From positions 1 to 64,000 of the forward strand of contig JAJBVD010000002.1 in NCBI GenBank assembly GCA_020859985.1: DNA of 64,000 nucleotides, written 5' to 3'. The DNA is from Clostridiales bacterium. Lineage in GTDB: Bacteria; Bacillota; Clostridia; Lachnospirales; Lachnospiraceae. Position numbers and translations under genes: made by a program. This document shows positions 20,164 to 41,515 of the stretch, in pieces. The notes beneath the pieces are model-generated. The model worked only from the letters and a program-made list of their open reading frames with translations. It searched no databases and was not told the origin of the DNA. Numbering within the stretch: position 1 is the first letter of the stretch; each line of letters opens with the position of its first letter.

Positions 20164-20199
20164 AGTATCCAGTCAAAAGCGGAAGCAGATAATAGCGGA

Positions 20200-20262
20200 G
20201 CCGTTCGAATTAAAATCGCTGACGCGATAGATACGGCCTGCATACCATATCCGGAAACGGAT
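20200..20262 (+). repeat. Two-hairpin leader element upstream of yajC (candidate divergent relative of the 29.6/40.7-kb elements)
   Basis: GCCGT..ATCGC tgac GCGAT..ACGGC, then ATCCG gaaa CGGAT; shares GAGCCGT...ACGGCCTGC with 29.6 kb. Confidence 0.5.
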
Positions 20263-20305
20263 GAGGGATAATGTGCGGAAGCAGAAAATTCAGGAGGCAC
20301 CTATT

Positions 20306-29610: not shown

Positions 29611-29700
29611 GCAGGACATATCAAGGTGAGCCGTGCATGAAAATTGCTTCGCAATGGCACGGCCTGCGTCCTGCATAAGTTTATGCAGGACATATCAAGG
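29611..29700 (+). repeat. Two-hairpin leader element copy A, flanked by perfect 16-bp direct repeats GCAGGACATATCAAGG; contains 13-codon ORF
   Basis: Hairpin 1 29630-29663 (GCCGTGC..ATTGC ttc GCAAT..GCACGGC); hairpin 2 29668-29691 (GTCCTGCATAA gt TTATGCAGGAC); direct repeats 29611-29626 and 29685-29700. Confidence 0.85.
29637..29678 (+). other. Candidate leader micro-ORF MKIASQWHGLRPA*
   Basis: ATG..TAA, 14 codons, preceded by AAGGTGAG; homologous to 40694..40735. Confidence 0.4.
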
Positions 29701-29711
29701 AGGAAATTCTC

Positions 29712-32201
29712 ATGAACGAAAAACTGTACGATCTTATGGACTGGGCAGGAATTGAGGCGCTTGTATACTCTGAGGAGGATCATCCGCATCAGTATCTTGG
29801 TGCACATCTGACTGACGATGGTATCCTGATTCTGGCATTTTTCCCGGATGCGAAGGAAGCGTATGTTCTGCCGGAAGGGAAAAAGAAGCCGGTAGCGATG
29901 GTGCAGGAGGATGAGGCCGGATATTTTGCCGTGCTGATCAAGGGAAAGACCATACCGTCTTATACGTATCGTGTCGTTTATGAGGATGGAAATAAGGTTG
30001 ATTACGGAGATCCTTATTCTTTTGAACCTGTGTTGACGGAACAGGAGACCCGTAAGTTTAACGCGGGTATTTCCTATGATATTTATGAAAAGCTTGGCGC
30101 ACATCCGATGACAGTCGATGGAGTTTCCGGTGTTTATTTTGCTGTTTGGGCGCCCTGCGCGATGCGTGTCAGCGTTGTTGGCGATTTTAACCGCTGGGAC
30201 GGCCGCATGTATCCGATGCGTCGGCTCTGGGATTCTGGGATTTTTGAACTGTTTGTCCCGGGCATTTCGGCGGGGGCACTTTACAAATTTGAAATAAAGG
30301 CGAAGGGCGGTCTGACCTACTTAAAAGCCGACCCGTACGCGAATGCTTCAGAGCTTCGTCCGGGAACTGCATCGATCGTGGCTGATCTGGATCAGTTTAC
30401 GTGGACGGACACAGAGTGGCTCTGTTTGCGCGGCGCAAAGCAGGCAAAGGATGCGCCGATGGCGGTGCTGGAAATCGATCTGGCGACGTTTGACAGGCCG
30501 GTATCCGTACAGAAGGCTGCATCCGGCGAAAACACGGTATCCGGGCAGACTGCGGCATCTGAAAAGGACGCAGCTGAGCAGGATATAATCAAAGAGGGTA
30601 CGGAAAATGATGCGGTGAAAGAAGCTGCCCCCGAATTCTGCAATTACCGTGAGCTTGCACCAAAGATAGCTTCTTATGCAAAAGACCTGGGCTACACGCA
30701 CATTGAACTGATGCCGGTGATGGAGCATGTCTCCGATGAGTCGCTGGGATATGAAGTGACCGGTTATTATGCGCCGACCGCGCGTTTTGGCACCCCGGAA
30801 GATTTTATGTATTTTATGAATTATATGCATGGAGAGGGACTTGGCGTAATTCTGGACTGGGTACCGTCTCAGCTTCCGCGCGACACGCATGGTCTGGCTG
30901 CTTTTGACGGTACATTCCTGTATGAACACATGGATCCCCGCAAAGGCGTACATCCGAAGCACAATACCTTATTGTTTAATTACGGACGTCCGGAGGTATC
31001 CAATTTCCTGATCGCAAATGCTTTATTCTGGAAAGAAGTGTATCATGCGGATGGATTGCGGATGGATTCCGTGGCATCCATGCTCTATCTGGATTATGAC
31101 CGCAGACCCGGCCAGTGGGTGCCGAATATGTATGGCGGCAATGAGAATCTGGAGGCAGTGGAGTTTTTCAAGCATCTGAATTCTATTTTCAAAAAGCCAA
31201 AGGATGGCGCAATCCTGATTGCAGAGGATGCTTCTACCTGGCCGAAGCTGACTGTTCCGGTCGAAGATGGCGGTCTTGGTTTTGACTATAAATGGAATAC
31301 CGGATGGACGCGCGATACCATTGACTATATGCAGCTGGATCCGTATTTCCGTTCACATCACCATGATGAGCTGACTCTTAGCATGGTCTATACCTACAGT
31401 GAAGATTTCATTGTCGGATTTTCCCATGACAATATTGTCAGCGGACAGGGCTCTATGTACAGCAAGATGCCCGGTAAGCCGAAGATGAAGTTTGCAAATC
31501 TTCGCGCGGCTTATGGATGGATGATCGCTCACCCCGGAAAGAAACATTTGTTTATGGGAGAAGACCTGGGGGTGGTTTCAGAATGGAACTGCAGGAGCAG
31601 ACTCCCATGGGAGTTTTTGGAAAAAGAAGAGCATCAGCAGATGAAAGTCTATATGCAGGATTTGCTTACATTGTATCGTATACATCCGGCACTGTATCAG
31701 AATGATTTTGAACCGGATGGTTTCGAGTGGATCGACAGCCTGTCCGCGAACGAGAATACTCTTGTTTTCCTGCGTCGTGACGGGGAGCCGATCGGAGACG
31801 CCGCACATGCCAAAATCAGGGAAGCTGCGGGAGCTGCGCAGGCAACGGAAGAACTTCTGATTGTATGCAATTTCTCGCCGCTTGCTTATGAAAAATACCG
31901 TATCGGCGTTCCGTATGAAGGGAAATACAAGGAAATCTTCAGCAGCGACAGCGCGCGATACGGCGGCACGGGAAAAGTAAATCCGCGCGTAAAAGCATCC
32001 AGACCGGTTCCCTGCGACGACCGTGAGAATTCAATCGAGATTCAGATGCCGCCGATGGGGATTGCAGTGTTTCGGTGTGAAAAAGCGGAAGAAAATAAGA
32101 AATCAGCCGATTCGAAGCCCCCTGTAAATGCAGAAAGAACGAAAAAGGCTGTCAAATCTTCAACAAAAAAGAAGGGTACTGCAAAACCGGAAAAGAAGTA
32201 A
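29712..32201 (+). CDS. glgB: 1,4-alpha-glucan branching enzyme (GlgB-like)
   Basis: 829 aa; HQYLGAH, GYYAPTARFGTPEDFMYFMN, ILDWVPSQLPRDTHGLAAFDGT, ADGLRMDSVASMLYLDY, LIAEDAS, SHDN; Lys-rich C-terminal tail and internal low-complexity insert. Confidence 0.9.
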   Translation: MNEKLYDLMDWAGIEALVYSEEDHPHQYLGAHLTDDGILILAFFPDAKEAYVLPEGKKKPVAMVQEDEAGYFAVLIKGKTIPSYTYRVVYEDGNKVDYGDPYSFEPVLTEQETRKFNAGISYDIYEKLGAHPMTVDGVSGVYFAVWAPCAMRVSVVGDFNRWDGRMYPMRRLWDSGIFELFVPGISAGALYKFEIKAKGGLTYLKADPYANASELRPGTASIVADLDQFTWTDTEWLCLRGAKQAKDAPMAVLEIDLATFDRPVSVQKAASGENTVSGQTAASEKDAAEQDIIKEGTENDAVKEAAPEFCNYRELAPKIASYAKDLGYTHIELMPVMEHVSDESLGYEVTGYYAPTARFGTPEDFMYFMNYMHGEGLGVILDWVPSQLPRDTHGLAAFDGTFLYEHMDPRKGVHPKHNTLLFNYGRPEVSNFLIANALFWKEVYHADGLRMDSVASMLYLDYDRRPGQWVPNMYGGNENLEAVEFFKHLNSIFKKPKDGAILIAEDASTWPKLTVPVEDGGLGFDYKWNTGWTRDTIDYMQLDPYFRSHHHDELTLSMVYTYSEDFIVGFSHDNIVSGQGSMYSKMPGKPKMKFANLRAAYGWMIAHPGKKHLFMGEDLGVVSEWNCRSRLPWEFLEKEEHQQMKVYMQDLLTLYRIHPALYQNDFEPDGFEWIDSLSANENTLVFLRRDGEPIGDAAHAKIREAAGAAQATEELLIVCNFSPLAYEKYRIGVPYEGKYKEIFSSDSARYGGTGKVNPRVKASRPVPCDDRENSIEIQMPPMGIAVFRCEKAEENKKSADSKPPVNAERTKKAVKSSTKKKGTAKPEKK

Positions 32202-40678: not shown

Positions 40679-40686
40679 TATGGAAA

Positions 40687-40757
40687 GCCGCGCATGAGAA
40701 TTGCTGCGCAATGGCGCGGCCTTCGTCCTGCATAAAATTCAATGCAGGACAGATTTA
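40687..40757 (+). repeat. Two-hairpin leader element copy B upstream of sufC; contains 13-codon ORF
   Basis: GCCGCGC..ATTGC tgc GCAAT..GCGCGGC (40687-40720) and GTCCTGCAT..ATGCAGGAC (40725-40750); homologous to 29630..29700. Confidence 0.85.
40694..40735 (+). other. Candidate leader micro-ORF MRIAAQWRGLRPA*
   Basis: ATG..TAA, 14 codons; 10/13 residues identical to 29637..29678. Confidence 0.4.
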
Positions 40758-40768
40758 GGAGGAACGGC

Positions 40769-41515
40769 ATGTCTGAAAAATTATTACAGGTAAAGAATTT
40801 ATCTGTCAGAGTAGAAGAAAAAGAAATTCTGCATGGGATCAACCTGGAGATCGGGAAAGGTGAGACTCATGTATTAATGGGACCGAATGGAGCCGGAAAA
40901 TCAACCCTTGGCTATGCGCTGATGGGAAATCCCGGCTATCAGGTGACAGGCGGGCAGATTCTGTTTGATGGAAATGGTCTGAATGAGGTATCTGTGTCAG
41001 ACCGGGCGAAAGCGGGATTGTTCCTGTCTTTTCAGAACCCGTTGGAGGTGCCGGGGATCACGCTCAGCAACTTTATCCGCAGCGCGCTGGAGCAGCGCAC
41101 CGGAGAACGCATTCGTCTGTGGGATTTCCGTAAGGAGCTTGAGGCAAAGATGGAAATCCTGCAGATGGACAAGTCGTACGCGAAACGCGACCTCAATGTT
41201 GGATTTTCCGGAGGTGAGAAGAAGAAAGCGGAGATTTTACAGCTTCTGATGATGAAGCCGCAGCTTGCAATTCTGGATGAGACGGATTCCGGGCTGGATG
41301 TCGATGCGGTGCGCACAGTGTCCCGGGGCGTTGAGGAGTACCAGAAGGATAAGGATGGTTCCCTGCTGATCATTACGCACAGCACGCGGATTCTGGAGTC
41401 CCTGCATGTGGATGTGACGCATGTGCTCGTGAACGGACGGATCGTGGCCGAAGGCGACGCTTCCCTTGTGGACGAGATCAATGAGAACGGTTTCGAGCGG
41501 TTCGAGCAGGGCTGA
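40769..41515 (+). CDS. sufC: Fe-S cluster assembly ATPase SufC
   Basis: MGPNGAGKSTLGYALMGNPGYQVTGGQILF, FLSFQNPLEVPGITLSNFIR, FSGGEKKKAEILQ. Confidence 0.96.
   Translation: MSEKLLQVKNLSVRVEEKEILHGINLEIGKGETHVLMGPNGAGKSTLGYALMGNPGYQVTGGQILFDGNGLNEVSVSDRAKAGLFLSFQNPLEVPGITLSNFIRSALEQRTGERIRLWDFRKELEAKMEILQMDKSYAKRDLNVGFSGGEKKKAEILQLLMMKPQLAILDETDSGLDVDAVRTVSRGVEEYQKDKDGSLLIITHSTRILESLHVDVTHVLVNGRIVAEGDASLVDEINENGFERFEQG

Follow-up and report, generated by a model that had tools for sequence, protein, structure and literature searches.

The segment immediately 5' of the glycogen branching enzyme gene glgB, in the 64,000-nucleotide stretch of Lachnospiraceae DNA that was analysed as a whole (the window), is very probably one copy of a non-autonomous dispersed palindromic DNA element whose pairing would be kept as folded DNA. 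In the best reading, this element is REP- or RPE-like and is often situated just 5' of ribosome-binding sites. The unit, of about 75-90 bases, would be constructed of hairpin 1 (foot GGAGA-GCC..GGC, with a variable inner hairpin), a linker of CTGC, CTTC or CTAC, and hairpin 2 (foot GTC..GAC-A). Most simply, it would have become established a single time, in the ancestor of one clade within this Lachnospiraceae genus. Insertion, tandem duplication, invasion by other hairpins and deletion have continued since, as is shown by the copy numbers, the tree, the empty sites and the scars described below.

The copy at glgB, termed copy A, and its surroundings comprise the following features, all on the + strand:

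29611..29626, +, left member of the 16-base direct repeat GCAGGACATATCAAGG, an exact repeat of 29685-29700
29622..29700, +, copy A as matched by the covariance model, with a DUF1015 gene on one side and glgB on the other (78.5 bits, E 1.2e-23 in the window)
29630..29663, +, hairpin 1 of copy A, from sequence, fold and covariation across copies
29637..29678, +, micro-ORF of copy A, MKIASQWHGLRPA and a stop, read in the sequence; judged incidental, unconserved among copies
29664..29667, +, linker CTGC of copy A, from sequence; most copies have CTGC, CTTC or CTAC
29668..29691, +, hairpin 2 of copy A with foot GTC/GAC, from sequence and covariation
29685..29700, +, right member of the direct repeat GCAGGACATATCAAGG, an exact repeat of 29611-29626
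29712..32201, +, glgB, glycogen branching enzyme, 3' of copy A (Pfam GlgB_N, CBM_48 and Alpha-amylase_C)

The original prediction described a double-hairpin leader element here, and its stems were confirmed by reading the sequence. The outer stem of hairpin 1 is formed by GCCGTGC (29630-29636) and GCACGGC (29657-29663) and encloses the inner hairpin ATTGC-TTC-GCAAT (29643-29655), while the arms of hairpin 2 are GTCCTGCATAA (29668-29678) and TTATGCAGGAC (29681-29691). Shuffled sequences fold much worse than copy A, with z of -4.1 as RNA and -4.6 as DNA. The interval first assigned to the element, 29611-29700, does hold the two-hairpin unit, and its first 11 bases (29611-29621) fall outside it. 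The left member of the direct repeat resembles the 3' end of another unit and is probably the remnant of a lost tandem neighbour.

Two further copies lie in the window:

20192..20278, +, third copy, decayed, in the tgt/yajC gap (covariance-model match of 30.4 bits, E 5.5e-8; several stem pairs broken)
40679..40759, +, copy B, in the gap between a Spo0A-like gene and sufC (covariance-model match of 84.3 bits, E 1.6e-25)
40694..40735, +, micro-ORF of copy B, MRIAAQWRGLRPA and a stop, read in the sequence; judged incidental, unconserved
40769..41515, +, sufC, 3' of copy B (ABC_tran; a SufBD-core protein comes next), its start picked by Shine-Dalgarno (SD) spacing

Only two copies had been recognised at first; both are real, and the decayed one at 20192-20278, whose neighbours are TGT and YajC, brings the count to three. 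It too is sense-oriented 5' of an SD. A 27-base core pattern matches copies A and B and nothing else in the 64-kb window, with 0.00 matches expected by chance. In copy B, the outer stem is GCCGCGC (40687-40693) paired with GCGCGGC (40714-40720), and the arms of hairpin 2 are GTCCTGCAT (40725-40733) and ATGCAGGAC (40742-40750); the compensatory change noted between the two copies, from T-A to C-G on both sides of the outer stem, is thus real in the sequence. The site upstream of sufC in G457 is occupied by a Clostridiales-1 RNA (RF01699, 119 bits; L181:1636-1811, - strand), where copy B sits here.

Beyond the window, BLAST within the same genome returned seven places, and a covariance model built from 14 copies returned 49 at E<0.001. 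With this model, 17 of the 47 genomes of the genus were found to be carriers of at least 15-115 copies each, every carrier genome searched being a multi-contig draft; the remaining genomes of the genus held zero copies, apart from G028, where a lone weak match was scored. A GlgB tree built for 30 of these genomes includes 15 carriers, and together these make up one side of a 100/100 branch. Among about 330 Lachnospiraceae genera sampled, 9 others hold relatives whose layout is the same but whose stems differ. When 391 genomes of the class were sampled, the only match besides the window's own genome came from the same family, with no relatives outside Lachnospiraceae. The covariance-model search for further copies in related Lachnospiraceae, proposed at the outset, thus returned dozens per genome. 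Together with insertion polymorphism between sister species and with tandem and nested copies, this strongly supports one of the two original suggestions, a dispersed structured element.

No Rfam family matches the element, and a tRNA is the only match above gathering score in the window. Such a family was not found described for Lachnospiraceae in the literature searched, which covered few subscription papers. Plasmids and phages gave no match by blastn, and viral contigs gave none to an exact pattern so narrow that this result is weak; a phage or plasmid vehicle was dropped on these grounds. A short motif of the element recurs in a separate dispersed repeat, ATCGAGTAGGG..CCTACTCGCCGCGCGGGCTGCGTC (G000 C26:9462, C31:76282 and C69:30138; L016, L018 and L026).

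In G251, which belongs to another genus, eight near-identical copies each have different flanks, and for this reason the data fit a recent amplification of the element there, which would make these copies a good system for the study of recent mobility. The G251 copies (L211-L221) mostly adjoin TCCTCC, the SD complement, on the left, opposite to the gene orientation. In G150 (L223, L227 and L230), the element sits within a longer palindromic repeat (GCCGCATTCCAAATCGTCC .. GGACGATGCGGC).

That the copies are real insertions is shown by sister species in which the corresponding sites are empty. The joined flanks of 21 copies from this genome were searched in three sister genomes. The AAA/DUF4143 gene, which carries an 84-base insert in this genome, is empty in G457 (CTGGGG/GTAG, i.e. 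CTGGGG/GTAGAAATC), and the C72 locus, filled in G457 and in this genome, is empty in G008 (GAATGCT/TCTGG) and also in G013. G013 lacks the insert in its radical-SAM gene, as does G026 in OppD. A MITE of a DDE transposon would be expected to have terminal inverted repeats and a target-site duplication. Such a duplication was found at neither of the two cleanest empty sites (AAA/DUF4143 and C72), and no consistent duplication or target sequence emerged across the sites examined; direct repeats beside some copies can be read as tandem remnants, and a 12-base repeat flanks one copy in G251. As a target signal, GG at +8/+9 is no more than suggestive. Flank frequencies and the two empty sites hint at TGGAR or GTAG immediately 3' of the insertion, a motif that is not put forward here, as it fails at OppD. 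Deletion of the element seems to happen as well, because scars of its 3' end persist at the C69 locus in G013 and G457 and in topB of G008.

Copies are also invaded in turn, extra nested hairpins being present in copy A of G008 and G457 and in topB of G013 and G457. A three-hairpin subtype carries a hairpin TACC-GTTCTCGATT..AATCGGAAC-ATTG at a fixed point between hairpin 1 and the CCTGC linker, and was seen at copy A of G008 and G457 (L132 and L134), at C54, C64 and C36 of this genome (L193, L195 and L206) and at topB of G013 (L187), as if a satellite palindrome had inserted site-specifically into the element. A second nested palindrome, TGTCATAAGGATTGCCGACGAAGTCGGAGGATCCCTTATGACA, lies inside the element in the glgB leader of G032 (L144) and, within coding sequence, in topB of G013 and G457 (L187 and L188).

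With respect to genes, copies were placed from fetched loci with a simple codon-usage score. An SD-like motif and a start codon follow within 45 nt downstream in the sense direction at 31 of 72 copies, against 4 on the other side, counts which are given without a probability since orthologues and tandem units are not independent. The copies lie mostly just 5' of ribosome-binding sites and run in the same direction as the gene. Some abut an opposite-strand gene at its 3' end. In seven proteins (TopB, OppD, AAA/DUF4143, radical SAM, PD-DExK, FAD and TrmA-like) the element is read through in frame in the sense direction, where it is predicted to be translated as an insert of 24-28 residues, and in three more it forms the C-terminus. 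At the OppD insert site, about 10 residues in the solved OppD/DppD chains correspond to forty here (query 125-164). A preferred conserved reading frame was looked for across the 72 copies and not found: the three sense frames are open in 34, 36 and 34 of them, and because they are about equally open there is no element-wide coding frame. Presumably, selection spared those copies that happen to be in frame.

The stems are maintained with few conserved letters, namely GG.RA-GCC on the left, GGC-CTGC/CTAC/CTTC-GTC between the hairpins and GAC-A on the right. Among 71 distinct aligned copies, 95.6% of cells are paired, 19 of 21 stem pairs have changed on both sides, with 207 compensated cells, and none of 500 shuffles was as good as the real alignment; this alignment was fitted to the model and hence leans towards it, and slid controls drop to 17-46% paired. 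The purine-rich foot 5' of hairpin 1 reads GG[AT][GA]A (GGWRA), which includes GGAG and GGTG. The GTC/GAC foot of hairpin 2 is paired in 66, 70 and 70 of the 71 rows at its three pairs, and the base after GAC is A in 96% of copies. Single-sided departures comprise 29 G-U pairs and 41 A-C mismatches, even though the model favours G-U, and copies just 5' of genes give 13 and 16, respectively. Since selection at the RNA level should favour G-U pairs, the lack of such an excess makes the pairing look as if it is kept at the DNA rather than the RNA level. The most likely reason for the kept pairing is handling of the element as folded DNA, its single-strand hairpin probably being recognised in trans by a putative nuclease or replication factor. 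The element shows that a compensatory base change in two leaders can arise through DNA mobility and not RNA regulation.

Copy A itself has an unusual history. It is identical at 73 of 73 bases between this genome (G000) and G013; in the same pair, the 300-nt flanks are 88% identical and the fourfold sites of glgB 49%. This identity appears to exceed what a neutral passenger should show, and in the simplest reading copy A may be under constraint in some species, perhaps co-opted, with local recombination as an alternative account. Because unpaired and paired bases are equally unchanged, such constraint does not single out a peptide. Copy A of G008 is nearly identical apart from its nested hairpin and that of G457 has diverged, while G001 and G032 bear different tandem copies at the site and most other clade members have no element there.

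These observations bear on the strongest rival, that the segment is a cis-acting RNA element of 5' leaders, duplicated around the genome and tuning mRNA stability or translation of the downstream gene, which we regard as improbable. The sense bias 5' of genes (31 copies against 4 of 72) could also mean a role in mRNA, and the complete identity of copy A with its G013 orthologue and its RNA fold (z -4.1) point the same way. However, G-U excess is absent even among the 5'-leader copies, several copies lie within proteins or by the 3' end of an opposite-strand gene, the G251 copies border an SD in the opposite orientation, and copies A and B are both missing from the same sites in related species. 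With G-U pairs no more frequent than A-C mismatches, the RNA-regulator role originally offered is disfavoured as the reason for the pairing.

The dispersed DNA element could instead be a GTAG-type REP mobilised by a RAYT (Y1 transposase), as in the standard REP/BIME system, and this we consider still less probable. Its purine-rich GGAG/GGTG foot 5' of hairpin 1 would suit such a system, and its high copy number, tandem and nested layout and intragenic insertions are as in REPs (PMC3733652). Nevertheless, the foot is GGWRA and not GT[AG]G, and the Y1 genes of this genome are on contigs that lack copies. Moreover, Y1_Tnp (RAYT, PF01797) is absent from element-bearing G030 and from the near-complete carriers G013, G456, G458, G035, G251, G150 and G235, upon which a RAYT/IS200 helper was dropped. 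No helper gene was identified for the element.

The other original suggestion, that a leader peptide (MKIASQWHGLRPA) is translated and coupled to hairpin 2, is the least probable account and a very unlikely one, and the element is probably not a regulatory leader peptide. The 13-codon micro-ORFs of copies A and B are both present and identical at 10 of 13 positions; copy A has an ATG, an SD-like AAGGTGAG and a stop within the 5' arm of hairpin 2, the frame recurs in copy B, and each of the four species with copy A retains the ATG and that stop. The likeness of the two peptides arises because the DNA of hairpin 1 and the linker is conserved, and the claimed conservation of the ORF did not survive comparison with other copies: the ATG is missing from the loop in 34 of 72, and the remaining frames vary in length and sequence. 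Four codons differ between A and B (K/R, S/A, H/R and one synonymous), so that in the suggested contrast of synonymous with stem-preserving substitutions three of the four alter the amino acid, one of these, the H/R codon (CAC to CGC), being the compensatory and stem-preserving change. In addition, the inserted hairpin alters the second half of the peptide in G008 and G457, the foot of hairpin 2 is broken in G008, and copy B of that sister species has one further amino-acid change in the micro-ORF. A leader-peptide attenuator was rejected, as the ORF is unconserved among copies or orthologues; the micro-ORF is, judged by its sequence, an incidental by-product of the repeat.

The preferred reading of a mobile palindromic DNA element can be extended, tentatively and as a rather unlikely proposal, to a family that spreads without an encoded or linked transposase, whose arms would correct each other via DNA hairpins, and which would add in-frame segments to housekeeping proteins and material 5' of ribosome-binding sites, some copies, such as that at glgB, now being constrained. 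Palindromic repeats embedded in proteins have so far been an oddity of Rickettsia and of certain REP-rich genomes, most of them proteobacterial, and the BOX, RUP, SPRITE and bcr1 families are mainly intergenic. In the Lachnospiraceae family, one site can occur empty, filled, nested and scarred in related species. Such natural before-and-after pairs allow study of how mobility works when no transposase can be recognised, of how an enzyme accommodates about 25 extra residues, and of whether expression alters when a copy lands beside a ribosome-binding site.

Among known systems, pneumococcal BOX, RUP and SPRITE and Bacillus cereus bcr1 are described in PMC3049150 and PMC6542083 as small interspersed repeats in Firmicutes, a description that the element shares; the sequence comparison with them was made through Rfam only, with no match. 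REPs are hairpins of 20-40 bp, and CGTC REPs, which have no dedicated transposase, place an unpaired CGTC tag and a CCA tail around a stem of 8-9 bp (PMC3733652, the text of which does not mention Firmicutes or Clostridia). The element resembles GTAG and CGTC REPs in its motif-tagged hairpins, high copy number, heterogeneity with kept stems, dimers or clusters and intragenic members (PMC3733652), and CGTC REPs in particular in having CGTC at the foot of hairpin 2 and likewise no dedicated transposase. It differs from REPs in combining two different hairpins in one unit, from CGTC REPs in that its GTC is paired to GAC and its tail is not CCA, and from GTAG REPs in that the foot of hairpin 1 is GGWRA, not GTAG. 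RPEs (Ogata et al. 2000, 2002, as cited in PMC10969869) are rickettsial, about 150 bp long and encode a conserved peptide. By description (PMC10969869), the two are alike as small dispersed palindromic repeats found in frame in unrelated conserved proteins and elsewhere, the element having sense in-frame inserts with empty alleles in TopB, OppD, AAA/DUF4143, radical SAM and others; in contrast with RPEs, the element is about 80 bases long, consists of two hairpins, resides in Lachnospiraceae and has no preferred peptide frame.
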